38,148 nt of DNA from Candidatus Cloacimonadota bacterium (GTDB taxonomy: Bacteria; Cloacimonadota; Cloacimonadia; Cloacimonadales; Cloacimonadaceae): contig JAQVIX010000016.1 in assembly GCA_028695495.1 (NCBI GenBank), forward strand, positions 1 through 38,148, given 5' to 3'. A model generated the notes under the pieces. That model was not told where the DNA came from. It ran no database searches and saw nothing but the letters and a program-made list of their open reading frames with translations. Made by a program: the position numbers and the translations under genes. Positions 8,635-32,345 of the stretch are shown in pieces (position 1 is the stretch's first letter; each line of letters begins with the position of its first letter).

Positions 8635-10407
8635 TTAGGCGGCTTCGACATCGAGATCATCGTCTTCGGCAAAAGAGATATCAAAGATGCGTATAGGACC
8701 ATCGATGTAGGTGATACCGGGGCGGATGCGGATATACCAGTGGTATTTCCAGTCCGAACCGTGGTGTTCTACTTTGAGCTCGGCATCGGTGCGATAGCCA
8801 ACAATAATGAAGCGAGAGAGCCCAGCGATGAGGTTGGAATCTGGCATAAAGCGCGGTTTTACCGGAATGCCGGAATAGCTGAGCTTGCCACCTTCGAGGA
8901 GGAATTTGTCTCCGGCAGGGGAGTTGCGGCGGGCAACTTCGGCCTTGATGCGGATGTGGTCTTTGTGCGAGACGTAGAAGACAAAATCTTCCATTTCTTC
9001 AAGGACGTCATCCGAGAATTCAAGGAGAGCAGCTTCCAGCTTTTCATCCCAATTGATGTTCTTGAGACCATCAATGGTGGTAATTGCATCGGATTCCTCG
9101 GCGAGGGCGATAATACCATCGAGCGCTTTTAGGGCGGGGGTGGATGAAGAGCGCGAGCCGGAGAATAGGAGCTTACGGATGGCTTTTTCGGCTTTGCGGG
9201 CGATATGCCTCTCGACGTAAGCGCCGAATGCGGCTTCGCCGTATTTATCCTTGTAAAACTCCACGGTGTCTCGTCTGAGAGAAAACTTGGCATGGAGTAT
9301 CCCTGTGGGGCAGGCAATATCTGCTGAGGCGATGTTTTGGGAGGAAACGGCTCCATCCTCGGAGTTTTTGAAGACGAGATCGGCAACAGTGCCTACGTCT
9401 ATTTTTTCATCTTTGAGGAGCGGGACCACGGTAATGTCCTTAAGTGTATCCGAGGGGTCGGAGGAGATTACTTCATCGATGAAAAGTGCGGTGGTTGTGG
9501 GGGTAAGGATATTCATGGGAGCGCCGGCATCTACATTGGCAATGCTTTTGTAAAGCTCCATTTTTTGAGATTTGAGGATAAGCTTAACGCCATCGATATC
9601 CACAGAGGAATCAGATGGAGCGGTGGCGGGCTCTCCTTTGACGGAAGTGGAAATGGCTTTGGATAGGCTGACAGAGAGCTGTTGGATTTCGGAAGTAAGG
9701 GACTTGATAAGCGCGTTTGATGCCGCGGAGGCATCCTGGGTCTCAAGCTCGGCGATACGTGTCTGGAGGGTGGCGAGAGCGGGAGTGGGGTCTGTGCCGG
9801 GTGCAGCCTTGGCGGCTTTGGCAATGGCATCGATCTGGGACTTTAGTTCGGTGATGAGTGCAGAATTATCTGCAGGGGCGAGAGAGGTGGCACTTCCTGC
9901 GATGGATACGCCATTGAGGGCACCCTTTGCGACTTTTTGCCAGTAGGGAGAACTGAGATCAAGGCACTTGATAACCCCTACCCAAGAGCCGATGCGGGTA
10001 TCTGGGAAGTGCTGAGGGTCTGCACTTTTGAGGATATAAGATTCTGCAATCATGAACTCCGGGACGGGCGTGAAATTGTGGTTGATATCATTTCTACCTA
10101 CCAGCCCCTTGGCGGCGAAGGCGTGGGCAGCTTTGGCTATTTCAGCGGCGGTGTATGTATCTCCCTGAAAATCGGCGATATCCGGCTCCATAATGGTGCA
10201 ATAGATCAGTCCCTGGTCACCCTGGGTGATGGACTTTATTTTGCGGGAGCTGGTGATTACGGAGTGTCCACCGGATGCAGATTTGTAGATGGCGCCGCGC
10301 TGATTTGCGGGCATGATGTCGTCGAAAAGGAGCGAGATTAGCTCGACATCTACATTTGCGAGAGCCGCCTTTTGGATGCGGCGGCGATGAAAGAATAAGT
10401 GTTTCAT
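8635..10407 (-). CDS. XkdF-type prohead protease fused to major capsid protein
   Basis: A 590-residue polypeptide that appears to combine three head functions. Residues about 55-175 resemble XkdF-type prohead proteases: GLIYCTIMEPDIADFQGD, His110 in NDINHN, GSWVGVIK and Ser168 in NGVSIAG as likely catalytic residues. Residues about 180-270 are Ala/Ser-rich and helical, like a scaffold (delta) domain. From about 285 to the end is an HK97-fold capsid-like domain with a long helical region and a beta-rich C-terminus. No other protease, scaffold or capsid gene is visible nearby, so the fusion is likely the only source. The fused layout is read directly; the fold assignments are inferred. Confidence 0.75.
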   Translation of the reverse strand: MKHLFFHRRRIQKAALANVDVELISLLFDDIMPANQRGAIYKSASGGHSVITSSRKIKSITQGDQGLIYCTIMEPDIADFQGDTYTAAEIAKAAHAFAAKGLVGRNDINHNFTPVPEFMIAESYILKSADPQHFPDTRIGSWVGVIKCLDLSSPYWQKVAKGALNGVSIAGSATSLAPADNSALITELKSQIDAIAKAAKAAPGTDPTPALATLQTRIAELETQDASAASNALIKSLTSEIQQLSVSLSKAISTSVKGEPATAPSDSSVDIDGVKLILKSQKMELYKSIANVDAGAPMNILTPTTTALFIDEVISSDPSDTLKDITVVPLLKDEKIDVGTVADLVFKNSEDGAVSSQNIASADIACPTGILHAKFSLRRDTVEFYKDKYGEAAFGAYVERHIARKAEKAIRKLLFSGSRSSSTPALKALDGIIALAEESDAITTIDGLKNINWDEKLEAALLEFSDDVLEEMEDFVFYVSHKDHIRIKAEVARRNSPAGDKFLLEGGKLSYSGIPVKPRFMPDSNLIAGLSRFIIVGYRTDAELKVEHHGSDWKYHWYIRIRPGITYIDGPIRIFDISFAEDDDLDVEAA

Positions 10408-10424
10408 GAGGTCTCCTGTAATGA

Positions 10425-11609
10425 TTAGAAGTTTCGGTTTGATTTAAAAAGGGCGAGATCATCATCCTGGGTGAGGGATGTGATATTTCCGAAATCGAAG
10501 TGAGAGGGAAGGACTTTCCAGGCTGGGAAATCGTAATTGAACTCGTTGGCAAGAGCCAAGGCCAGGCGGAACTGGAGGGGTTTTATGACGAAGTGATAAA
10601 AAAGATTCATGTCGGAATTGTTGTCTCCACCGAGTTGGCCGGAAACGAGCTGGGAAACGATCCGGGGTGGTACGCGATGATAGGCAAAGATGCCATCGCG
10701 GAGGTCTTTTTTGAGGGTTTGGAAACCGCCATCTGGCAGAGATTGGCGGAGTGGTTCGAGCTTGATTTTGACGTCGCGTGATTCGGATTCGATGAGGATT
10801 GCGGAATGGGACTTGGCATTTCCTTTGGCCTCGCGCAAGGCGGCTTCGATTTGCTGGAAGGCATCTTGCATTACTTCATTGCCGTTTTCGTCTATTACTA
10901 CGCCATCGCGAAGTGAGCCGCCTTCTACAATCATGAAGTAATCTATGAGCAATCCATTTTTGAAGTTATTGTAATCGTAAGTTTTAATTTCATTTAGGAT
11001 TTCCAGCGAAATAACTATGGGGATGCAGGCAAGACCCCAGGCGGATGAGCGGTGAGTGGCTTTTTTGAGGTGGAGGATATCGGCGTAGCGGAAGTCTTTG
11101 CGGACGCCAGCTCGCACCTGGATGTAATCCGGGACGAAGAAGCCGAAATCATCGTAGCGTTCAACGATGCGCACTTCATTGGGGAGCAGGCGCTCAATGC
11201 CAGTCCAGACGCCCTGGCTATTGCGCATTTTGATGAAGAAGCCATTGCCGCAGGCTATGTAATACTTTAGAAGCTCGGTGAGGAGGGTTGATTCATCCTC
11301 GCAAGAAGGGAAGGATGCAGCTTTGAGCCAGGCTTTTACCTGAGAATGCGAGCATTCAAACTTGGTAATGGTGGACATGGCAATGGCATCGATGCAGCCG
11401 GCGTGATATTCGTCCTGGTCTATGAGATTGAGCAGCTTATCCATGGAATAGGGTGGAGCCGCTTCTTTTTTTTCGGCGGCCTTGGAGATGATACGGGTGC
11501 CCTTGACGCAGAGGCGTGAAAGATCGGGCAGTTCTGGGGCATAGGACTTTAAAATATCGGCGGCGGCGAGGATTCCGATATTATTGTGAGCGATGCGCTG
11601 GATTTTCAT
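10425..11609 (-). CDS. Portal protein (PBSX/P2-like)
   Basis: This 394-residue protein forms the dodecameric ring at the capsid vertex through which DNA enters and leaves. Family features include the helical N-terminal wing, WTGIERLLPNEVRIV, the adjoining DILHLKKA segment, WGLACIPIVISLEILNEIKT and a C-terminal RVPPRIVSQLVSG block, in the order seen in PBSX-family portals of about 350-400 residues. Mu's own portal (gp29) is different and larger, so this module is mosaic. The gene overlaps its upstream neighbour by 4 nt. Confidence 0.8.
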   Translation of the reverse strand: MKIQRIAHNNIGILAAADILKSYAPELPDLSRLCVKGTRIISKAAEKKEAAPPYSMDKLLNLIDQDEYHAGCIDAIAMSTITKFECSHSQVKAWLKAASFPSCEDESTLLTELLKYYIACGNGFFIKMRNSQGVWTGIERLLPNEVRIVERYDDFGFFVPDYIQVRAGVRKDFRYADILHLKKATHRSSAWGLACIPIVISLEILNEIKTYDYNNFKNGLLIDYFMIVEGGSLRDGVVIDENGNEVMQDAFQQIEAALREAKGNAKSHSAILIESESRDVKIKLEPLRQSLPDGGFQTLKKDLRDGIFAYHRVPPRIVSQLVSGQLGGDNNSDMNLFYHFVIKPLQFRLALALANEFNYDFPAWKVLPSHFDFGNITSLTQDDDLALFKSNRNF

Positions 11610-13067: not shown

Positions 13068-13964
13068 TCAAGATTGAATTTCGGAATCGAGGACGAGCTC
13101 GGTTTTCGTGCGGCATTTCCAGTGGAAGGGGGGGAAGGGGGTGTGGGGGCCGGAGACGCCCGTGGGGTTGCCTTCTGCATCGTATTCGATTTGTTTGGGA
13201 GAGACCCAGGGGGCGATGGCTTTGATGCGGTCTCGGGCGGATTCGAGTGATTCTGCTCCCTGGTCAATATCCAGGAGCTTATCCCTGATATCGAGGGCAG
13301 GGGCAAGGGGATAGACTTGATTTTGGGATACGAGGGCGAGGCAGATATCTGAGGTTCGGTCGTCCAGTGGGTTGACCAGGCGGTAGTAATTGATGCCTGC
13401 TTTTTCGTATCCGGAGAGGCGTCCAAACTCGCGGATGCGGAGGGCAGTGTGTTCGGCGAGGCCTTGCCAGTAATGGGCGGATTTTTGACCGAGGTCTGCA
13501 AACTGTTTTTCTAGGGCAGTGGCAAGGTCTCGCATGGTCCAGCCTTCTGAGAAGAAGCGGTTGAGGACGCTGCGGAAATCTTCGGCGATATCGGCATCGA
13601 AGTGGTTTTCAATCCAGAAGATATTTTGGCGGGCGATGATGTTGGCGAGATTTTGGTCTTTTACGCCATATAGTCCGATTGATATCTTGGTTTTCAGCTG
13701 GACGGCAACATCCTGGATTCCGATGCGGAGGGAGCGTTCGGTATAGGCGAATGTTTCGGAAGATACGGCGGCAGCGAACTTGGGGCCGAGTTCAACGGCG
13801 GCGATATTCATGATGTTATCCACGGTCTGCTGGTCTTTTCTGGACTGAGGGTCGATCTGAGAGAGCCAAGTGATGGCTTGCAGGGATGCGGCACGGAGTT
13901 TGGCACGCCAGGCGTTATTCAGGGGGCGGTAGTAGGCATACATGAGGCGATCGAAGTAGTTCAT
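13068..13964 (-). CDS. MuF-like minor head protein (Mu gp30 family)
   Basis: This 298-residue protein has a helical N-terminal two thirds and a C-terminal MuF domain with the characteristic DDRTSDICLAL segment (about 205-215) and the HWKCRTKTEL segment near 285. In phages such as Mu and SPP1 (gp7), the MuF domain attaches to the portal or is injected with DNA. Order terminase, then MuF, is as in Mu; the portal lies further away after a second promoter. It overlaps the terminase end by 4 nt (ATGA). Confidence 0.8.
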   Translation of the reverse strand: MNYFDRLMYAYYRPLNNAWRAKLRAASLQAITWLSQIDPQSRKDQQTVDNIMNIAAVELGPKFAAAVSSETFAYTERSLRIGIQDVAVQLKTKISIGLYGVKDQNLANIIARQNIFWIENHFDADIAEDFRSVLNRFFSEGWTMRDLATALEKQFADLGQKSAHYWQGLAEHTALRIREFGRLSGYEKAGINYYRLVNPLDDRTSDICLALVSQNQVYPLAPALDIRDKLLDIDQGAESLESARDRIKAIAPWVSPKQIEYDAEGNPTGVSGPHTPFPPFHWKCRTKTELVLDSEIQS

Positions 13965-15508
13965 ACAGTCATTTTCCGAATGCGGACACGGGTTCGAGAG
14001 GAGTATTCGCTGAAGCGCTCAAGGCATCCGGCAATGGCATCCGGACCATCGATGTAGCCATCGGGGTAGCTGAGGTATTGGGATTTGAGAGCGGGAGTAT
14101 CCTGCCCAACGGGAAAGAGGAGTCTGGCAGATTCGATGGTGGTTTCGGTGGCTTCGATGCGGAGGAATTTATTTTCGCGGTTATCAATGCGCTTGAAGAG
14201 GTGAGAGATGGGTTTTAGGGCGTTTTCTCGAGCCCAGCGATCGAATTCATCGAGGATGCGATGTTGCCCGAAGGTGGTTTCGATGGAGGGGCGGAAACGG
14301 GCTTTATAGGTAGCCAGCAGGTCAATAGTGGTGTCATAAAGATGGCGAAAGAAGGCTGTATTTTCAGTTTGTCGGAGCCAGATACGGAGGAGGTAGAAAC
14401 GTGCACCATCGTAAGCGATGGCGGCAACGGCCTTGAAACAACCTTTTTCACCCCAGGCGGGATCGCAATATAGCCATACCCGCGACACCTTTGATAGGGA
14501 CGGCGGAGCGCTGTAATGTGCGAACCATTCGTTTTTGAAGATATTTCCATCGATCACGGCAAATCCGAGCATTTCTCTCTGGTACCCTGTATGCCCATAG
14601 CGGATGCGAAGCTGGGGAAAGGAAGCGGCGGGATACTTTTCTGGCCAGGCGGATGAGCCATCCGGGTTTTCCAGGGGATATGCCAACAGCTTGCGTTGCG
14701 GCATGACAAGAGTGTGATGATAGGATGGCATAAAGTCCGGAGAATCCTGGCGAATGTGCGCAATAATGGACTCTCTGTACATGACGATAGAGTAGTTTGG
14801 GTGAACGAGATTGCCCAGGAGAATGACGACAGAATCTGGAGATTTGCGGATGGCGCCGCCGATTTCTTCCAGGATTTTGCGCAGCTTGCGGCGTCCGATA
14901 TTTTGATTACCCTGGTTGCGTTCGAGATCGATGTCGTCGCAGATAATGAGATCGGGACGGCGGGCAGTGCGGGGATTGATAAGACCGCGAAAAGAGGAAT
15001 TGATGCCAGCGGCGAGGATATAAGCGTTGTTTTTGAGGTAAAATTCGGATACATCGTCTCCATCGGTGCGAAGCTGAGGGAAATCTGTAAGGATTCGGCG
15101 ATTTTCGCTAAGCTGATGGTGCGTAAGAGCGGAACGATTTGCCGCGAGTTGTGCATCAGCGGCGATATGAACGATGAAAGTATCCCCACGAGCGATGCGC
15201 CAGATGGGATAAACAACGCCCATCAGGATGGTTTTTCCTAGTTCGCGGAAGCCAGTGATCCCAACAATACCAAAGTAATTGTGAGTGTGGCGGAACATGT
15301 CTTCGTGAGCCGGGCAAAAGGGGAGATCGAATATGTGAGGGAAATAGGTAGAGCAGAAATATGAAAATCCATCCCAGGAGTTATCTATGGCGCGGGTGAT
15401 GCGCTGGGATTTTTCTACGGGGGAATCTCCAGCGAAAGGCAGGACAGCAGGGGTCTTGGCGACAATGCGTGCGATGGCTTTTGATTGCCGCTGGGTAAAA
15501 CGCTTCAT
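13961..15508 (-). CDS. terL: Terminase large subunit
   Basis: This 515-residue packaging motor has an atypical Walker A (GFRELGKT, about 86-93), Walker B DLIICDDID (186-194), a coupling segment SVVILLGN near 226-233 and a nuclease-domain Asp in LYCDPAWGEKG (Asp349), with a later acidic pair in DGPDAIAG near the C-terminus. It resembles Mu gp28-type terminases, which cut host DNA next to the prophage at packaging and so carry flanking host DNA. It overlaps the upstream gene by 4 nt and the MuF gene by 4 nt, implying translational coupling. Confidence 0.85.
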   Translation of the reverse strand: MKRFTQRQSKAIARIVAKTPAVLPFAGDSPVEKSQRITRAIDNSWDGFSYFCSTYFPHIFDLPFCPAHEDMFRHTHNYFGIVGITGFRELGKTILMGVVYPIWRIARGDTFIVHIAADAQLAANRSALTHHQLSENRRILTDFPQLRTDGDDVSEFYLKNNAYILAAGINSSFRGLINPRTARRPDLIICDDIDLERNQGNQNIGRRKLRKILEEIGGAIRKSPDSVVILLGNLVHPNYSIVMYRESIIAHIRQDSPDFMPSYHHTLVMPQRKLLAYPLENPDGSSAWPEKYPAASFPQLRIRYGHTGYQREMLGFAVIDGNIFKNEWFAHYSAPPSLSKVSRVWLYCDPAWGEKGCFKAVAAIAYDGARFYLLRIWLRQTENTAFFRHLYDTTIDLLATYKARFRPSIETTFGQHRILDEFDRWARENALKPISHLFKRIDNRENKFLRIEATETTIESARLLFPVGQDTPALKSQYLSYPDGYIDGPDAIAGCLERFSEYSSRTRVRIRKMTV

Positions 15509-15720
15509 GACAATACCTCAATGATTTCATTTTTTAGTGCATTCCAATCTCCGCCAGCAGCAACAATCATGTTTTGGATGTCGTCCAAAGAAGAGCCAAT
15601 GGGCGCTTCGATATAGTCGAAGCTGTAGCCGTCTTCTGTGGGGGTGTGGTTCCATGTGACATAGATGAAATGCGAATAGATGAAGCAGGTGGGCATTATG
15701 TTGTCAGATGATCCGGTCAT
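15505..15720 (-). CDS. Small hypothetical protein between DGR and terminase
   Basis: This 71-residue acidic protein overlaps its neighbours by 4 nt on each side (ATGA), so translation is probably coupled across them. The N-terminal half is aromatic-rich and the C-terminal half looks helical. No family is recognised. Confidence 0.5.
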   Translation of the reverse strand: MTGSSDNIMPTCFIYSHFIYVTWNHTPTEDGYSFDYIEAPIGSSLDDIQNMIVAAGGDWNALKNEIIEVLS

Positions 15721-16064
15721 ACTGTATTCCTTTGTTCAGATTTGAACTTGTAGTAGTTTCCAATTTTAACAATTTGCGCACGAAAAGGGATTTTGGCCGC
15801 GTACTTTCTGATTTGATCGACTAAAACTATGCATCCTGAGAAAACCACGTGAAGCTCGCTATTAAGCTCGATTTGCAAGGTGAGGCAATATGGCGAACCG
15901 CCTTTTTTGGGGAATTTAGTCTCTTTGATGCGGTAGCCGCGGACGATCAAATCCTGATTTAGCAGATCATCAATTTTCATCTTTTCGCCTTCCAAGGTTT
16001 CGGAATCATCACCAAAATCACTGAAGTTATTTACATCGTCATTTTGTACATAGGATTCTTGCAT
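15717..16064 (-). CDS. Small beta-rich protein, possibly OB-fold, overlapping the RT
   Basis: This 115-residue protein starts inside the last 34 nt of the RT gene. An AAGGA ribosome-binding site 6 nt before the ATG at 16064 supports that start. About residues 29-115 alternate strands and short turns (IVRGYRIKETKFPKKGGSPY, then FSGCIVLVDQI and FRAQIVKIGNYYKFK), a pattern that would fit an OB-fold, single-strand-binding type domain. The N-terminal 28 residues are acidic and probably disordered. No Avd-like protein is found near this DGR, so this could be the accessory factor; that is inference. It could also simply be a phage ssDNA-binding protein. Confidence 0.5.
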   Translation of the reverse strand: MQESYVQNDDVNNFSDFGDDSETLEGEKMKIDDLLNQDLIVRGYRIKETKFPKKGGSPYCLTLQIELNSELHVVFSGCIVLVDQIRKYAAKIPFRAQIVKIGNYYKFKSEQRNTV

Positions 16065-17086
16065 TTCAATTCCTTACATGAGTTTATAATTTTGTTTTTC
16101 ACGCCGTCTGTAATGTGTTTACGGCGCAGTCTTAGCGTATTTGCGTGGCAAAGCCAGCCATAGTAGCTTACGAAGCTGGAGACGACAGCTTTCGCACTCA
16201 TTTTGCCGGATGCTATCAGCTTCATTTTGCGTTTGAAATTAAGTGCAATGGATTTGCGAAGCAGGGTATATCCGGAGAAAAAGCGATAGCCCAGGAAGTC
16301 AATACCACGGATAGATATGGGAAAAACCTGCCAGTTGTTATTCACGGATAGTTTTAGTTTTCGCAAAAGAAAAGACACGATCTCTTTGCGCAGTTTATGA
16401 AGTTCGTCTTTGTCCGAACCCAAGATCACCAGATCGTCACAGTAGCGGTAATAATGCTTTATGCGTTTTTCTTCTTTCAGCCAGTGATCAAAACCGCTAA
16501 GATAGAGGTTTGCCAAGTGTTGCGAAAGATAGTTGCCGATGGGAAGTCCCGATTCGGCACTTTCAATTATCTCATCTATCAAAGCCAAGGTGGGTTTGCA
16601 TTTTATCAGGCGGCGCACCAGCGATTTTAGTATGTCGTGATTCACGCTCGGATAAAACTTCTTGATATCCATTTTTAAGCAATAGCGGGCATCAGGAGCG
16701 GTGCGCAGAACGCGGGACAGCTTCTTTGCGCAGGAGTGTATTCCACGTCCGGGCACGCAAGCGTAAGTGTCTGCAATCAGATTTTTAACAAATATAGGGA
16801 GCGTGATCTGTAAAATAGCGTGATGTACAATGCGATCAGGATAATACGGGAGCTTATATATTTGTCTAATCTTGGAGCCGCAGCGCCTTTCCTGCTGCAC
16901 GTAAGGGGATGTGATGTATTTGCCTAAGATGAGCATTGTCCTGAGGTTTTCCAGGTATTGATCCCGGGCGCCATCTACTGCGCGAACTTCACGATACCAG
17001 CCCTTACCCTTGCGCGCATTTTCGTGCGCAAGCCACAGGTTCTCAATATCTGCTATTTTCATGAATAAATCACCAACTCTTTTCAT
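16031..17086 (-). CDS. Diversity-generating retroelement reverse transcriptase
   Basis: This 351-residue protein is a compact group-II-like RT. It carries LKMDIKKFYPSV (motif A Asp140), GLPIGNYLSQHLANLYL at 180-196, in which SQ replaces the QG found in other RTs (a DGR signature), and YRYCDDLVILG with catalytic YCDD at 215-218. The C-terminal thumb-like part is basic. There is no maturase, protease or RNase H domain. It lies 108 nt downstream of the template repeat and is on the same strand as the target gene, so the order target-template-RT is standard. Its start lacks a strong ribosome-binding site; Met9 is an alternative. Confidence 0.93.
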   Translation of the reverse strand: MKRVGDLFMKIADIENLWLAHENARKGKGWYREVRAVDGARDQYLENLRTMLILGKYITSPYVQQERRCGSKIRQIYKLPYYPDRIVHHAILQITLPIFVKNLIADTYACVPGRGIHSCAKKLSRVLRTAPDARYCLKMDIKKFYPSVNHDILKSLVRRLIKCKPTLALIDEIIESAESGLPIGNYLSQHLANLYLSGFDHWLKEEKRIKHYYRYCDDLVILGSDKDELHKLRKEIVSFLLRKLKLSVNNNWQVFPISIRGIDFLGYRFFSGYTLLRKSIALNFKRKMKLIASGKMSAKAVVSSFVSYYGWLCHANTLRLRRKHITDGVKNKIINSCKELKCKNPMYKMTM

Positions 17087-17193
17087 CTCTGCTTATTTCC
17101 GCCCGGAGCCTTCACCTTCAGGGCTACCAGCACCTATGGGCTTTCTTTGTTTTTTGCCAAGAGGCAGGGTGCCTGACATCAGTTTGTGTTTTA

Positions 17194-17313
17194 ATAAGCT
17201 TAGCTGCCTGCCGATATTCGCATTCCGATTACCGGAGCTGTTGCTCGCATTCACGCAGAACACGCCCGCATTACCGACGTTATTCGCATTCCCGCTGACT
17301 GCAACTACCCGCA
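17194..17313 (-). repeat. DGR template repeat (TR)
   Basis: It matches the variable repeat over 120 bp with 18 differences, all at adenines of the coding (minus) strand: 18 of 29 TR adenines are changed and 0 of the other 91 bases. The changes are A to G 8, A to T 8 and A to C 2. TR codons include eight AAY positions that became Ala, Ile or Tyr in the target. It sits between the target gene and the RT, and is flanked by an 86-codon frame (17093-17353) that is simply open and probably not a protein. A small inverted repeat (TTAGT-N3-ACTAA, 17332-17344) lies between the repeats. Confidence 0.95.
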
Positions 17314-17349
17314 TAGCCAAGCACCTTAATGTTAGTGATACTAATTTTT

Positions 17350-18819
17350 TCATAAGCAGAGCCGCCCGCCGATATACGCAATCCGATTACCGGAGCCGTA
17401 GCCCGCAATCACGCAGAACACGCCCGCAATACCGACGTAAATCGCAGCCCCGCCGACCGCAACCACCCGCAAGCCACTACTGCTCGATGGATAAAAGCGA
17501 TCCGTAAGCCCCGTGATAGAACTTCCACCCGCTACGCGTGGGATAAAACCGTAGTCCGCTAACTCCTCATAAATGCGGGTTATATAGCCTGATGGCATAT
17601 TAGGCTTTTCCCCTGCCTCGATAATACGCTCATAATTCGCCAGGGTGTCGCTAAATGGGTTTTGGCAAACATACACATCCGCTCTGTCCGTTGCGTGAAA
17701 ATCGTATAGCATGCCCTCAACCCATTGCCAAATGTGCCCGTAGGGATTTTCAATGCCGCGATAAGACGGTATCACGTCTTCCCAAAAAACATTCTTTTCA
17801 CCATCGAAAACAGGCAAACCCCGGTCGGGGTAAACATCGACCAAAGACACACAACCGGACGCGTTGCCTAAAGTCTCTGTGCCCCCGTTCGGAACTATTG
17901 GCAGATAGATCGAGCTGCCTTCGACAGCAGACGCCTCCCAGGTGGCAGACGGTAGATTCACCAACCCACCTGTGGGGCAGCCCGTGAGAGCAAGCTGGCT
18001 GTTAAAAGTGGCAAATTCGGTGAGCATTAAAAGCCGCTGAGCTTCCAGTAAGGGGTTGTCCAGCAAACGCCAGGTGCTATCATCTGAATTGTTATCTCGG
18101 CGACGTGCGGCTGCCCTAAACTCGGCTCGTGTGCCTCTGCCTACTGGCAGTTTCCCCGCTACTGATGCCAGACGCGGTTTTGACTGCAGGTAGAGCTGCC
18201 TTTCCAGGGTTACAACTCGCTGGTGTTCTCCCGTGTATTCGTAATAATCCTGGTATTCGTCATCCTCGTTTTGCAAAACGCCCAGGTACTTCGCTTTATA
18301 GCGAAAAGGAACCTCTGTGAGCTTGCCGCCGATCACCTTCAAAAAAGCGGGGTGTACATCGAATCCGGGCAGGGCATGAGGAGATATCCACCATTCTAAA
18401 TTGTCCGGACTGTTAGGATCATACACCGCTTGGTAGTAAAATTTTGGTATTTCAACCATTACCTGGCCGTCTTTTCCGGTGATATCTGCCGGGCTGCCAT
18501 CCGCGCGTAGGTTGGAATTTTGCGGATGCAGATAATACGCCACGCTGTCTTGCGGAGCGCGTGCATCCACATCATCGTCCACCACACAACACTGCATCTT
18601 TCTCTGGGTGAGCAGTTTGCGCGCAAGCTGCTCAGACCAAGGCAAAGCTCCGTTTTCATCGTTGAATTCTGCCAGACGACCGAGCCGCTCATAACGTCCC
18701 GCAGCGCCTCCGACAGGGAGTGAAAAGTTGAACCGGACGCCGTAGGCGCTTTCGTCTAAGCGTCCGATAATGCCAGCTTTATTCTGCGGCAGCATCAACC
18801 GGTGAGAAAGTCGCATCAT
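17350..18819 (-). CDS. DGR target: FGE/C-type-lectin-like variable protein
   Basis: This 489-residue protein's C-terminal 130 or so residues, with SGLRVVAVGG, a GVFCVIAG core and GSGNR ending at the VR, fit the CLec/formylglycine-generating-enzyme fold usual for DGR targets. The N-terminal 200 residues are beta-rich with several aromatic and acidic patches and probably attach to the virion. A conserved-looking PYGHIWQWVEGMLYDF near residue 370 resembles the FGE-type GNVWEWV motif. No signal peptide is seen. It is the fourth gene after late promoter B and follows its upstream neighbour with a 1-nt overlap. It likely binds host receptors, but its place on the virion is not shown. Confidence 0.88.
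   Translation of the reverse strand: MMRLSHRLMLPQNKAGIIGRLDESAYGVRFNFSLPVGGAAGRYERLGRLAEFNDENGALPWSEQLARKLLTQRKMQCCVVDDDVDARAPQDSVAYYLHPQNSNLRADGSPADITGKDGQVMVEIPKFYYQAVYDPNSPDNLEWWISPHALPGFDVHPAFLKVIGGKLTEVPFRYKAKYLGVLQNEDDEYQDYYEYTGEHQRVVTLERQLYLQSKPRLASVAGKLPVGRGTRAEFRAAARRRDNNSDDSTWRLLDNPLLEAQRLLMLTEFATFNSQLALTGCPTGGLVNLPSATWEASAVEGSSIYLPIVPNGGTETLGNASGCVSLVDVYPDRGLPVFDGEKNVFWEDVIPSYRGIENPYGHIWQWVEGMLYDFHATDRADVYVCQNPFSDTLANYERIIEAGEKPNMPSGYITRIYEELADYGFIPRVAGGSSITGLTDRFYPSSSSGLRVVAVGGAAIYVGIAGVFCVIAGYGSGNRIAYIGGRLCL
17352..17471 (-). repeat. DGR variable repeat (VR)
   Basis: The 3' end of the target gene, ending at its stop codon. Compared with the TR, 14 amino acids differ (for example N to I, N to Y, N to A, S to G, Q to R), plus three silent differences. 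Alternating conserved segments (RVVAV, GVFCV, GSGNR) keep the scaffold while the variable positions presumably face a ligand. Confidence 0.95.
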
Positions 18820-19480: not shown

Positions 19481-19933
19481 TTATACATTACGTATCCTGA
19501 GATACTCGGACAAATCTACGATGATAGCCTGGAACTCTTTGAGCAAGCCATTATAGCCTTTTTCCAGGAAAAAATCAGTTGTTTGGTCCAGGAACTTGAT
19601 AATATATTCGTTCAGCTCTTTCGCTGGTTCCAAGCGCTTAGCTTCGTTTCGCAGAAGCGCCACGAGAGCCTGGAGCTGAGTATTGCGGGGATCGGCTGCG
19701 AATTCTTCCAGAGCTTTTACCACCGCGCGTTTGCGAGCTCGATCAGCGCGAATTTCAAGGTTTTCCATTTCTTTCGCCATTTTGCGCCAACTGCCGCGGG
19801 ATATCCAGTTAGACACCGTGCGAGGGGCAACGCCAAACTGCTGAGCCAGAACACGGTGATCCGTCTGCCCTGCAAGGTAGGCATCTTGGGCGGCTACTCG
19901 CGCCTGTCTGTAGTTTATTTTTTGCGTACTCAT
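19481..19933 (-). CDS. Terminase small subunit-like protein
   Basis: This 150-residue protein begins with a helix-turn-helix (HRVLAQQFGVAPRTVSNWIS, about 27-46), then helical segments, as in Mu gp27/DUF1804-type small terminases that select phage DNA for packaging. It is the first gene of the late operon. Its ATG lies within promoter copy B with no ribosome-binding site, so it is probably leaderless. The large subunit is about 4 kb away, separated by the DGR. Confidence 0.65.
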   Translation of the reverse strand: MSTQKINYRQARVAAQDAYLAGQTDHRVLAQQFGVAPRTVSNWISRGSWRKMAKEMENLEIRADRARKRAVVKALEEFAADPRNTQLQALVALLRNEAKRLEPAKELNEYIIKFLDQTTDFFLEKGYNGLLKEFQAIIVDLSEYLRIRNV

Positions 19934-23951: not shown

Positions 23952-24662
23952 TTAGCCTCCCAAATCCTTCATGGTGATCGTGCTGAGATTTTTCGCAAGC
24001 GCCAGGGATTCCATCGAGTCCATTACCTTGATTGCCTGGCGCAGGTTCCCACCAGATACGCGATGGATATAGCGCACCACATCTTCATCCATCTTTATTT
24101 CCAGGATGGAAGTGGCAACCATGCTGAGGTCTTTCAGACTGCAGGGTAGAAATTGGTAAAACTGAGAGCAGCGATCGAAGTAATAGCGATTGATCTGTAG
24201 TAGCCGCTCCATGGCGTTTTCCATGCCCACCAAAATCACAATGGCGAGCGTCTCGTCCACGATGTCGCGGATCGCGCCTAAAAGCAAAGGGTTGCGGAAG
24301 CCATAATCGATCTCGTCTATCAGAATTACCGTATGTGGATGCAGTGCCAAAAGATTTACTGAGCGCTGAAATAGATCATGCGCAGAGCCCGCTACTGCAA
24401 TATCACCATATCCCAAAGATTTAGATAGTGTCCGCAGCAAGGTCTTTGAAAAGTTCTTGGCGGTGGTGGTGGCTTCCAGGCGAAGGTAAATGTAGTTTTC
24501 GCGAAGCGCTGTCCGCGTTGCCCAGGTGGTTTTTCCCAGACCCGGCGCACCATATACGAGACCGAGACCGACCATTTCGAGCTTTGGGCGCCGCTGGAGT
24601 TCGCTAATGCAGCGATTTGCTTCCAGAACGTTGTGAGTGGGGATTAGCTTTCCTTGTTTCAT
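23952..24662 (-). CDS. MuB-like transposition ATPase
   Basis: This 236-residue AAA+ ATPase has Walker A GAPGLGKTT (38-46), Walker B VILIDEID (112-119), a sensor-1 region ILVGMEN and a C-terminal SGGNLRQAIKVMDS helix. In Mu, MuB polymers bind target DNA, attract the transposase complex and confer target immunity. It starts 1 nt after the transposase stop. It is shorter than MuB (312 residues) and lacks its N-terminal HTH, like many MuB relatives. Confidence 0.85.
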   Translation of the reverse strand: MKQGKLIPTHNVLEANRCISELQRRPKLEMVGLGLVYGAPGLGKTTWATRTALRENYIYLRLEATTTAKNFSKTLLRTLSKSLGYGDIAVAGSAHDLFQRSVNLLALHPHTVILIDEIDYGFRNPLLLGAIRDIVDETLAIVILVGMENAMERLLQINRYYFDRCSQFYQFLPCSLKDLSMVATSILEIKMDEDVVRYIHRVSGGNLRQAIKVMDSMESLALAKNLSTITMKDLGG

Positions 24663-24663
24663 T

Positions 24664-26700
24664 TTATATTCCTCCTATTCCTCTTCTTTTTAGTGCATCT
24701 GTGAAGCTATTGCCTTTCGGTTCTGCTATTTGTATATCTTTCGTTTTAGCCGTTTTTTGCAAAATTTTGGCAACTACTTCGTTGGCAGATTCCTGGTCAA
24801 TGGGCGGGCTGATCATGGGCGGCTGACGGAAGGTGGGGTTGTTTTGGGATATCTCGTCCATTACGGCATCTTTGATATACTGCGTCTTCTTGATTACGGC
24901 AGCAACGTTTCGCTGTGCGCGTTTCATGGTTTGAGCCGTGTTTTTTTCGATCTGTTTGCGGAGACGACGGGTTTCTGAAAGCTCCTGGACGAGGCTTTGG
25001 CGCGCAATGGGATTATCCATCTCAATGGCGATAAAGCCATGTTGAGCCTCGCGCATAGGTGCCTGTGCTATGAATCTGCCAGTCAGATCATACACCAGTA
25101 TCCAGCGTAGATCAGAGTAATCGTAGCGGATGATCACCGGCTGACCTATGTGTTTTACAAAGTTTTCATGCCAATATCTACACTTATTCAACCATATTCC
25201 TTCGCTCCTGAGTTTTTTCCGCTCGGCTTTCAGCATCATAAAGTTGAGCTTTTCCGGCGAAATTGTGCGCTGCGGATCTATTGCGCGTGCCGCAAAGACC
25301 TCATAAGGTTTTTGTCCATTCAGTCCGGGGTGCGGACGCATCCCATATACATGGCGAAAATAGTAATATACCATATCCAGCGCTTCTTCCAAAAGCAAGG
25401 GCTTGCCGCTCTGCATTTTCTTTGCCCACTTTTCATTACGGGAATATTGAGCGGGTTTGTCGTCGATATTGCGACCACGGAAAGTTTTTTGGAAGCGCTC
25501 AAATTGCTCCTGAAGGCTGCGGAAAAAGCGTTCAATCACCTTTGCGCGGGCGTTGTAGGCTTCTGCAAATTGAGCCTGGATGCCCAGCCGCGGGAATATT
25601 CCAGCAAAATCCGCGTTGAGATCGTGCTCTTCCCAGCGATCGTGAAAAAGCTTAGACTTGAAGCCCTTGCCGTTGTCCAGGTATATGAATCTGGGCAAGA
25701 AGCCGAGATGCATAATAGCATTGCGCACGGCTACCAGGATGTGCTCAGATGATTCCGTGAGCACCAGTGATGCCCCGATGGGATACCGCGATGCCCAATC
25801 AATTATCAAAATAAGCGTGAGCCGCGCCGGTTTCCCCGTATGGGGATTTATTGTGTCAAAAGCCAGTATGTGCCCATCTGCTACCAGGACGTCCCCGGGA
25901 ATTAACATCGAGGTATCACGAATGATAGATTTTACGATGTTATCCTTTACATATTTGCTGCCCTTGCGCGCCTGTGCCCATTCGTCCGGATTTTGTGCGC
26001 GCCAATCCGCAATCCAGCGCTTGAGGGTTGATTCTGAGGACGGGCTATCGCAAAGACCCATGTGGGTATCGTGTTTGAGATTGCCGATGGCGGAGCCGAT
26101 GGAGATTTTGGGGCCATCTAAAAGAAGCGCCAGGAGGTAGTCTTGCTCAAATTCCGTCACCTTACGCCCCCGCTGGGCATCGGTATTTTGATGCACCAGC
26201 GCAAACATGTCGCGTCCAGATTCGTGCCACTTGCTTAGCCATTCGCGCAGAGCACGCTCGGAGCGCTTGCCTTTTAGCTTATATAGCTCCGGAGCCAAGG
26301 ATTTATCGTTGTAGCTGCGGGTGATCTGTTTCCAGGCCGTTCCTTTGGTCTCGGCGGCGTCCAGGATGTTTTCGGCGGCTTCGAGGAATTGAGCAAAAAG
26401 CTGAGCCTCATCCATTTTGTGAAGCGGCAGATGCTCGGAAGGAGTGAAATCTGGGATGGGTTCGCATGGTTCGCATGGTTCGCATGGTTCGCATGGTTCG
26501 CATGGTTCGCATGGTTCGCATGGTTCGCATGGTTCGCATGCGATCAACCATGTTGTCCGTCCCGATATGCTCGGATGTGGAACTTCTTTTATTTGGTGCA
26601 CTCCTCTTGCGATTTGCTTTTGAACAGCCCGCTCGCTGAGGTTCATTCTGTCTGCGTATTCTTTCACTGAAAGCCAATTTACATCATGCTGTTCTTTCAT
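24664..26700 (-). CDS. MuA-like DDE transposase
   Basis: This 678-residue enzyme is supported from ATG 26700 by AAGGAG 7 nt upstream; a longer frame to 26727 has no such site. The order is an N-terminal winged HTH (VKEYADRMNLSERAVQKQI), a nine-unit CEP repeat linker (55-81), end-binding domains, then the RNase H-like core with D275 (VLVADGHI), D342 (YLDNGKGF) and E390 (AKVIERFF) as the likely DDE triad, and a basic C-terminal domain that would contact MuB. The transposase probably acts on the sites at 135-507 and 30154-30271. A cysteine-rich linker is not usual for MuA. Confidence 0.9.
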   Translation of the reverse strand: MKEQHDVNWLSVKEYADRMNLSERAVQKQIARGVHQIKEVPHPSISGRTTWLIACEPCEPCEPCEPCEPCEPCEPCEPCEPIPDFTPSEHLPLHKMDEAQLFAQFLEAAENILDAAETKGTAWKQITRSYNDKSLAPELYKLKGKRSERALREWLSKWHESGRDMFALVHQNTDAQRGRKVTEFEQDYLLALLLDGPKISIGSAIGNLKHDTHMGLCDSPSSESTLKRWIADWRAQNPDEWAQARKGSKYVKDNIVKSIIRDTSMLIPGDVLVADGHILAFDTINPHTGKPARLTLILIIDWASRYPIGASLVLTESSEHILVAVRNAIMHLGFLPRFIYLDNGKGFKSKLFHDRWEEHDLNADFAGIFPRLGIQAQFAEAYNARAKVIERFFRSLQEQFERFQKTFRGRNIDDKPAQYSRNEKWAKKMQSGKPLLLEEALDMVYYYFRHVYGMRPHPGLNGQKPYEVFAARAIDPQRTISPEKLNFMMLKAERKKLRSEGIWLNKCRYWHENFVKHIGQPVIIRYDYSDLRWILVYDLTGRFIAQAPMREAQHGFIAIEMDNPIARQSLVQELSETRRLRKQIEKNTAQTMKRAQRNVAAVIKKTQYIKDAVMDEISQNNPTFRQPPMISPPIDQESANEVVAKILQKTAKTKDIQIAEPKGNSFTDALKRRGIGGI
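26461..26541 (-). repeat. Nine-copy 9-bp tandem repeat in the transposase gene
   Basis: Nine tandem copies of TTCGCATGG (the last ends in C) encode nine Cys-Glu-Pro triplets between the HTH and the end-binding domains of the transposase. The unit is a multiple of 3 bp, so copy-number change by slippage keeps the frame. It separates two DNA-binding parts, so its length could alter enhancer-to-end coordination. Confidence 0.95.
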
Positions 26701-26739
26701 CCTGCATCTCCTTATTAATCCATACAAATCTCCAAAAAT

Positions 26740-28674: not shown

Positions 28675-28734
28675 TTGTCAGTGTATAAGGACAAGATACA
28701 CAAACCTTGTATTATGTCAAGCAAAAAATACAAG
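28675..28734. promoter_or_regulatory. Divergent operator and early promoter
   Basis: On the minus strand TTGACA (28715-28720), a 16-bp spacer and TATCTT (28693-28698) can drive the Cro/Ner-like gene. Overlapping palindromes are GTGTAT-N9-ATACAC (28681-28701), TTGTC-N10-GACAA (28675-28694) and CTTGTATT-N13-AATACAAG (28706-28734). Binding of the repressor at these sites would cover the promoter. A plus-strand promoter for the repressor is not clear. Confidence 0.6.
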
Positions 28735-28755
28735 AATTATGTATTTAGGAGAACC

Positions 28756-29403
28756 ATGGAAGTCCCCGAAAGAATTAAAACCTTGATTAGCATGAACATG
28801 CTAACTCAAAAAAAGTTTGCCGAAAGTATCGGCATCAGTCCTGCGCGTCTTAATAATTACCTCGCTGGACTCTCTAAGGTTCCCCAAGATATTTCTATTA
28901 AAATTGCAGACAAATATAATTGTTCTCTCGCTTGGCTCCTTACCGGCGAAGGCGAAATGTTTAATAAGGAACGCACGCGCGAGGGGAAGTCGCCCATGAT
29001 CCGTCTGCCCGTGGTGGGAGATATTGCCGCAGGCGCGCCGATGGAGATAGTCCCGGACGAAGACCCGCGCTATATCGAGGTCTCGTTCAAATTGCTTCGT
29101 TATCCGCCTCCATATCTGGTCTTCAATATCGCCGGGGAGAGCATGCGCCCTTTCCTGGAGCCTGGGGATGTGGTGGTGTGTAGCCAGGATTGGCGCAATG
29201 TGGATATAGACGGTAAGATAATGGCGTTTCGCACGCCGGATGGAATCACAGTTAAAACCTTGCGCGAAGACTACCCGCACAAGACAACCTGGCTCATGCC
29301 AATCAATAATCAATACGCCCCGAAGCCTTATTGTGAGGATGATGAAGAGATCGTCATGATCGGGATTTTGGATTTGGTAATCAGGGAGATTAATAGGAGT
29401 TAA
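28756..29403 (+). CDS. CI/LexA-type phage repressor
   Basis: The 215-residue start at ATG 28756 is preceded by AGGAGA at 28747-28752; an upstream frame from 28675 is weaker. The N-terminus is an XRE-type HTH (LTQKKFAESIGISPARLNNY). The C-terminus is an S24 autoproteolysis domain with Ala92-Gly93 (AAGAPM), Ser129 (GESMRPF) and Lys167 (VKTL). This fits a RecA-stimulated repressor, so induction by DNA damage is likely, unlike Mu's c repressor, which is not LexA-like. Confidence 0.85.
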   Translation: MEVPERIKTLISMNMLTQKKFAESIGISPARLNNYLAGLSKVPQDISIKIADKYNCSLAWLLTGEGEMFNKERTREGKSPMIRLPVVGDIAAGAPMEIVPDEDPRYIEVSFKLLRYPPPYLVFNIAGESMRPFLEPGDVVVCSQDWRNVDIDGKIMAFRTPDGITVKTLREDYPHKTTWLMPINNQYAPKPYCEDDEEIVMIGILDLVIREINRS

Positions 29404-30128: not shown

Positions 30129-30153
30129 CAAAAAATCATATATCCTTTCCCCC

Positions 30154-30271
30154 ATTTGCAGAAATCGCTGACCCAATTTGCAGAAATAGATGACCCAAAA
30201 TCTTGTCGTCAATGGCGAGACGACTCCCATTTGCAGAAATCACTGACCCAATTTGCAGAAATAGATGACCC
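30154..30271. promoter_or_regulatory. Four transposase-binding-like sites at the repressor end
   Basis: Two tandem pairs of the same motif as at the other end, inverted: 30154-30174, 30176-30196, 30229-30249 and 30251-30271. Pair centres are 22 bp apart. Variant ATAGATGACC occurs at the outermost site of each pair, and ATCACTGACC or ATCGCTGACC at the inner one. The outermost copy lies inside the terminal inverted repeat. Confidence 0.75.
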
Positions 30272-30277
30272 TTTACA
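30244..30277 (-). repeat. Terminal inverted repeat, repressor end
   Basis: It matches 127-160 in reverse complement at 33 of 34 positions and ends CTTTACA, giving the TG...CA termini of a Mu-type element. Confidence 0.92.
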
Positions 30278-30282
30278 TTTCT
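30278..30282. repeat. Target-site duplication, right copy (TTTCT)
   Basis: Identical to 122-126, immediately outside the prophage terminus. Confidence 0.9.
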
Positions 30283-31871: not shown

Positions 31872-32148
31872 AATGAACTCCTATATTTTATCTGATTACA
31901 ATATTTTGACACAGCAGGATTTTCGTCAAGCTCTTTTCGCGGCAAAAGCTGTAAAAATCGCAATGAGTTCGAGTGGAATGGTGTGGATTCGCAGGGTAAA
32001 AAGCTGCCGGTATCTATTTTATGCGCCTGAGACAGGATAAGTGGGTGCTGAAGCTGAAATAGAGCATAATAAATAACAATATCAAGGACTTGTGGTATAC
32101 GCCATGAGTCCTTTTTTTGCGTGTTTTGCATGAGAACATGAAACAAAA

Positions 32149-32222
32149 CCCCAGCCCCCCTTGTAATTGATGGCACAAAACTCCCTCGGGTTTTGTACCA
32201 TCAATTACAAGGGGGGCTGGGG
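32149..32222. repeat. Large near-perfect inverted repeat in host intergenic DNA
   Basis: Two 33-bp arms (32149-32181 and 32190-32222, one mismatch) with an 8-nt loop. Arms start CCCCAGCCCCCCTTGTAATT and end with ACAAAAC next to the loop. No U-tract follows on either strand. A MITE-like element, a repeated intergenic hairpin or a structural RNA are possible. Confidence 0.85.
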
Positions 32223-32345
32223 GATAAAAAGGATTTCATCAAACATGCCTGTCACTCAGGGTGATCGTGCCCAAATATTTGCATGCTCATATTGAGGCAC
32301 TAACACTCTGGGCTAGCTAAAATGCCGTTCCTCCGGAACTTTGAA

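Follow-up and report, generated by a model that had tools for sequence, protein, structure and literature searches.

The accessory protein Avd is found in most but not all diversity-generating retroelements (DGRs) and is not strictly defining for them. In Bordetella BPP-1 a helical Avd lies between the variable repeat (VR) and the template repeat (TR) of a cassette whose target is a lectin-fold tail protein. A homologue of the accessory gene is lacking in about a quarter of DGRs, and Wu's lineage 3, to which crAssphage LMMB was assigned, has the order target-TR-reverse transcriptase (RT) and no avd (PMC7290462). Replacement of Avd by 'another small protein' has been suggested, without identification of that protein (PMC5883640), and an accessory gene without a Pfam family is attributed to Wu et al. 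2018 (10.1093/nar/gkx1150) in the account given by PMC10053308. DGRs are also known from Mu-like phages, namely from Firmicutes (Toussaint 2013, as cited in PMC5883640), from Faecalibacterium phage Mushu (PMC5883640) and from hankyphage (PMC6199706), where replicative transposition and active DGR mutagenesis were demonstrated together (PMC12135933).

We analyzed a stretch of 38,148 nucleotides from a Candidatus Cloacimonadota bacterium (contig JAQVIX010000016.1), here called the window. At this locus VR and TR diverge at adenines only, the RT is intact and of DGR type, the target has a lectin fold, and the transposon ends are exact. Very probably, this is a complete DGR (target with VR, TR, RT and accessory gene) that lies between the terminase genes of an intact Mu-like prophage, in the slot for the receptor-binding protein, with a small protein that we call ACC as the RT partner doing the job of Avd.

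The described systems each share some of these traits with the window. Hankyphage p00 (Bacteroides; BK010646; PMC6199706, PMC12135933) is also a Mu-like phage with a DGR in VR-TR-RT order, 5-bp duplications and an ACC domain, and like the window it has no match to an Avd profile seeded from BPP-1 Avd, though a figure in PMC12135933 labels an Avd. However, its ACC is fused to the C-terminus of a far diverged RT, and its target is a huge tail gene that ends the tail operon rather than a gene between the terminase genes. CrAssphage LMMB and other 'lineage 3' DGRs share the target-VR-TR-RT order and are reported to be avd-less (PMC7290462). The LMMB RT is 44% identical to that of the window, but LMMB is a crAss-like phage in which a separate ACC gene was not found. 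Mushu and Bacillus BalMu-1 are likewise Mu-like phages with a DGR or DGR-type RT, but Mushu carries Avd (PMC5883640), and so by a profile search does BalMu-1, which also has MuA and a DGR-type RT. BPP-1 shares the cassette logic and the lectin-fold tail target, but has its Avd, has no ACC and is not Mu-like. Finally, the archaeal virus ANMV-1 (PMC4372165) has the order target-TR-RT followed by an ACC-family gene (AJP62065); PMC4372165 marks an 'Avd' among its DGR parts, and the gene after its RT belongs to the ACC family, while the DGR stretch of this virus gave no match to the Avd profile.

The prophage and those of its features that are used here are as follows.
127 to 30277, unstranded: Mu-like transposable prophage of 30,151 bp, with TG...CA termini, inverted repeats, a 5-bp target-site duplication, MuA/MuB, terminase, portal and tape measure
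122 to 126, unstranded: left target-site duplication, TTTCT
30278 to 30282, unstranded: right target-site duplication, TTTCT
127 to 505, unstranded: left end, with the terminal inverted repeat, seven 17-bp cores GTCANNNATTTCTGCAA and one inverted core at 303, which are probable MuA-binding sites
30151 to 30277, unstranded: right end, with the terminal inverted repeat and four inverted copies of the left-end 22-bp unit
24664 to 26727, minus strand: MuA-like transposase, 687 aa (Mu-transpos_C E 3e-17; phrog_310 transposase E 4e-83)
23952 to 24662, minus strand: MuB-like ATPase (phrog_296 DNA transposition protein E 2e-25)
28675 to 29403, plus strand: CI/S24-type repressor (HTH_3 and Peptidase_S24)
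19481 to 19933, minus strand: small-terminase-like protein (TerS), one edge of a variable slot
13961 to 15508, minus strand: large terminase (TerL), the other edge of the slot (phrog_38 E 1e-53)

The initial annotation had described a Mu-like element with intact ends, and the termini bear this out: TG at 127 and CA at 30277 bound 34-bp inverted repeats that are identical at 33 of 34 positions, TTTCT flanks both sides, and the 22-bp units are repeated at both ends in opposite orientation. The gene set comprises MuA, MuB, the S24 repressor, terminase, portal, protease/capsid and tape measure. The assembly contains one insertion of the element. No empty insertion site was found in the genus, where conservation of the right flank is confined to the vicinity of ileS, and the target-site duplication therefore stands in for empty-site proof. 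Within the host family a MuA match is present in 35 of 196 genomes and relatives with a MuA about 50% identical are common; viral_contigs holds only four MuA relatives, also about 50% identical. Beyond the prophage, at 32140-32321, lies a dispersed repeat that contains a 33-bp inverted repeat (32149-32222) and has more than 10 copies of 79-89% identity in the same genome; it is a MITE-like or REP-like element.

In most relatives that share the terminase genes TerS directly adjoins TerL. Elsewhere the interval is filled by other genes (L153) or, in the nearest sister (L158), by a glycine-rich fibre-like protein at 9992-11281, and no RT of the window's clade was found in the related prophage stretches that were fetched. 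Thus, the DGR occupies a variable slot, and we infer that this slot between the terminase genes is the receptor-binding slot.

On the minus strand the cassette reads target with 3' VR, TR, 107-nt spacer, RT and 115-aa ACC gene.
17350 to 18819, minus strand: DGR target, a tail protein of 489 aa, variable protein with C-type-lectin (CLec) fold (phrog_5302 tail E 2e-67; model pTM 0.84; best PDB match TaqVP 5VF4)
17352 to 17471, minus strand: VR, from repeat comparison
17194 to 17313, minus strand: TR, from repeat comparison
17087 to 17193, minus strand: TR-RT spacer of 107 nt, a candidate structured RNA that may recruit and prime the RT, proposed from its position and by analogy with BPP-1 (PMC12875486)
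16031 to 17086, minus strand: DGR reverse transcriptase, 351 aa, with IGNYLSQ and YCDD (RVT_1; phrog_1423 E 2e-116; PDB 8UB7; tree)
15717 to 16064, minus strand: ACC, small OB-like accessory protein of 115 aa that overlaps the RT stop, the proposed Avd substitute (family and adjacency, genome-wide specificity, RT fusions, structure, no Avd)

Recomputing the repeat pair gave the same coordinates, mismatch count and adenine-only pattern that had first been annotated. Specifically, TR and VR each span 120 nt at a fixed offset of 158 and differ at 18 of 120 positions; these differences hit 18 of the 29 TR adenines and none of the 91 other TR bases, and comprise eight A>G, eight A>T and two A>C changes. 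A repeat scan for adenine-specific pairs ranks this pair top in the region. The adjacency of TR and VR resembles a tandem duplication, as would be expected if a gene end had been duplicated and its copies had diverged in the ordinary way, or if the differences were the product of A-to-G deamination. This reading is extremely improbable, since 18 random differences would all fall on A with a probability of 3e-14 (29 A among 120 bases) and 10 of the 18 changes are A>T or A>C. The initial annotation had also counted 14 amino-acid changes, mostly at AAY codons, which agrees with our recount of 14 (8 at AAY codons and 4 at AGC) together with 3 silent codon changes. It had further proposed related loci as a check on the A-only pattern, and homologous RT loci likewise show A-only TR/VR differences; in the same repeat scan A-specific TR/VR pairs adjoin 34 of the 49 loci (L001-L049) that were fetched by RT similarity.

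It could also be supposed that the cassette is a defunct DGR whose A-only differences are a trace of past activity. In keeping with this, the hairpin 3' of the VR is not significant: its 5-bp stem, TTAGT-ATC-ACTAA, was equalled in 13% of shuffles and so does not exceed chance. However, a dead cassette is expected to collect random changes, and here 0 of 91 non-A template positions have changed and all genes are open, so that we regard a defunct element as quite unlikely. There is no long A-free IMH at the window VR, where variable adenines extend to about 10 nt from the repeat end.

The target ORF (18819-17350) terminates in the VR with its stop codon at 17352-17350, as had been noted at the outset. 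A comparison of its predicted structure with PDB gives TaqVP 5VF4 as the top match (E 3e-8), followed by BPP-1 Mtd (E 7e-3), indicating that the VR forms the 3' end of a gene with a predicted C-type-lectin fold. Thus, of the lectin/FGE-like context annotated initially, the lectin-type fold stands on structure, while Pfam gave no FGE or lectin family match and Pfam/NCBIfam no meaningful match of any kind. A pattern search found no close relatives of the target in viral_contigs. An 86-aa ORF (17353-17093) runs across the TR, its start overlapping the target stop (ATGA) and its frame staying open through the TR, features that could suggest a genuine protein. It matches the tail family only because the TR copies the VR, and in homologues the TR frame is mostly 46-52 aa and stop-bounded with no conservation of the longer frame. 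A genuine protein here is very improbable, and we rejected the TR as a coding gene on account of the short open frame in homologues.

The RT (17086-16031) is intact, and the DGR-type SQ and YCDD motifs that had been ascribed to it are both present, as SGLPIGNYLSQ, which contains the DGR motif (I/V/L)GxxxSQ, and YRYCDD. Against solved structures 8UB7 is the best match (E 6e-42), with group II intron RTs well behind (E 6e-21); the RT in 8UB7 is 328 aa, the same length as BPP-1 Brt. In a 114-row tree the window RT falls in a 76-row clade (97% SH-aLRT) that takes in crAssphage LMMB and other TG-VR-TR-RT cassettes, with BPP-1 and BalMu-1 outside and the Avd-bearing RTs apart. Placement outside the DGR RTs had been named as a result that would count against the annotation; both the tree and the structural ranking put this RT among them.

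The interval first annotated, 16031-18819, holds DGR parts as claimed but leaves out the small gene at 15717-16064. Using a profile seeded from two small genes that follow RTs in the window's genome, we found the ACC family at 50 of 113 non-redundant RTs: 46 copies lie downstream of the RT, 2 lie upstream and 2 are C-terminal fusions to it. Most of the 46 downstream genes overlap the RT stop and the remainder lie within 400 bp. One fusion is a single 438-aa open frame in a Prevotellaceae genome (L020 9971-11287). The other is in hankyphage (L184 38740-40047), where the ACC domain corresponds to residues 328-423 of the annotated RT and matches a profile built without hankyphage at E 1.5e-16. 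Among 15 genomes with the window RT lineage ACC occurs only at the RT, save for one marginal fragment (E 1e-3). When 395 Bacteroidota genomes were scanned blind, 5 ACC matches emerged, all directly beside a DGR-type RT and one of them in the known centre genome. These coincide with the five strongest RT matches of the same genomes (Fisher p 8e-11, a guide only as the rows share ancestry). The family is also present in two archaeal viruses, vir525 and ANMV-1. PHROGs places most of it in the unnamed phrog_19665, and it has no meaningful match in Pfam/NCBIfam.

In the window and several relatives ACC sits among phage late genes, and about a third of the clade has no detectable ACC, both of which would fit a neighboring phage gene that has no DGR role and is kept by phage synteny. 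We consider this unlikely, as ACC accompanies the RT in phages unrelated to one another and in archaeal viruses, has no copy away from the RT in the tested genomes, precedes the RT in two cases and forms one protein with it in two more, and is mutually exclusive with Avd. The ACC profile left about 26 RTs of the 76-row clade without a match, so ACC is not universal; in these RTs it may be fused, too diverged to match or truly missing.

The favored reading of ACC as an RT partner is also consistent with its predicted structure. The model, of moderate quality (pLDDT 79), has the strand order b-b-b-a-b-b, which fits a five-stranded OB barrel. Sequence and fold searches of PDB returned nothing significant, with no match better than E 0.2. 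Against viral models, phage reverse transcriptases rank highest (E 3e-6 and 1e-5), with the RT of crAss-like cr7_1 a weak match (7e-3); uncharacterized proteins and phage ssDNA-binding proteins (E 0.03-0.09) follow further down. Counting against nucleic-acid binding, the window ACC is acidic (pI 5.8), although the family median is 8.7. As the simplest reading of the model, we propose that ACC would be an OB-like nucleic-acid-binding partner of the RT.

No match to the Avd profile was found near the window RT. The 17 non-redundant RTs that have Avd alongside all fall outside the 76-row clade of the window RT, and none of the 113 non-redundant RTs has both Avd and ACC. ACC itself does not match the profile of the helical, PF05635-like Avd, and its predicted b-b-b-a-b-b order is not all-helical. 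Separately, a group of Bacteroidota DGR-type RTs (L208-L227) has neither Avd nor ACC detected nearby. The ACC family may be the accessory gene without a Pfam family of Wu et al. 2018, as that gene is described in PMC10053308, in which case it may have been described before. No account of a 'CH1' gene turned up in the literature searched.

The initial annotation had considered a full DGR in a Mu-like element unusual. This does not hold, given the precedents of Toussaint 2013, Mushu and hankyphage and a second case in the same genome; the window cassette adds a further example of a known pairing, that of a DGR with a Mu-like phage. The second Mu-like element of the window's own genome (G000 contig C71; L154, L230) has Mu-transpos_C, a TniB-like ATPase, Portal_Mu and DUF3164, and carries its own DGR and ACC gene in the same cassette order. 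Its RT is 49% identical to the window RT, and its TR and VR differ at 14 A and 1 other position. The C71 TR region is 77% identical to the window TR over 86 nt.

Taken in order, TR RNA would be made along with the late genes and copied by the RT, which would misread template adenines. The cDNA would then replace the VR, and the lectin face of the tail protein would change at up to 14 or more residues. The TR would persist as the master copy. ACC, made directly after the RT, would be the nucleic-acid-binding partner of this RT lineage and do the job that Avd does in BPP-1, a step for which the comparative support is strong. It would act in trans in the window DGR and in cis, as an RT C-terminal fusion, in hankyphage.

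More generally, we tentatively suggest, at somewhat less than an even chance, that Avd-less DGRs have a dedicated cofactor not previously described as such. Such a cofactor would be a small OB-fold protein, encoded next to the RT or as a C-terminal extension of it; it would bind template RNA, cDNA or the target strand, and mutagenic retrohoming would depend on it. ACC is a concrete candidate for the replacement of Avd in these DGRs, and because hankyphage has an RT-fused ACC domain, is active and resides in a tractable commensal, the question is open to a direct deletion test.
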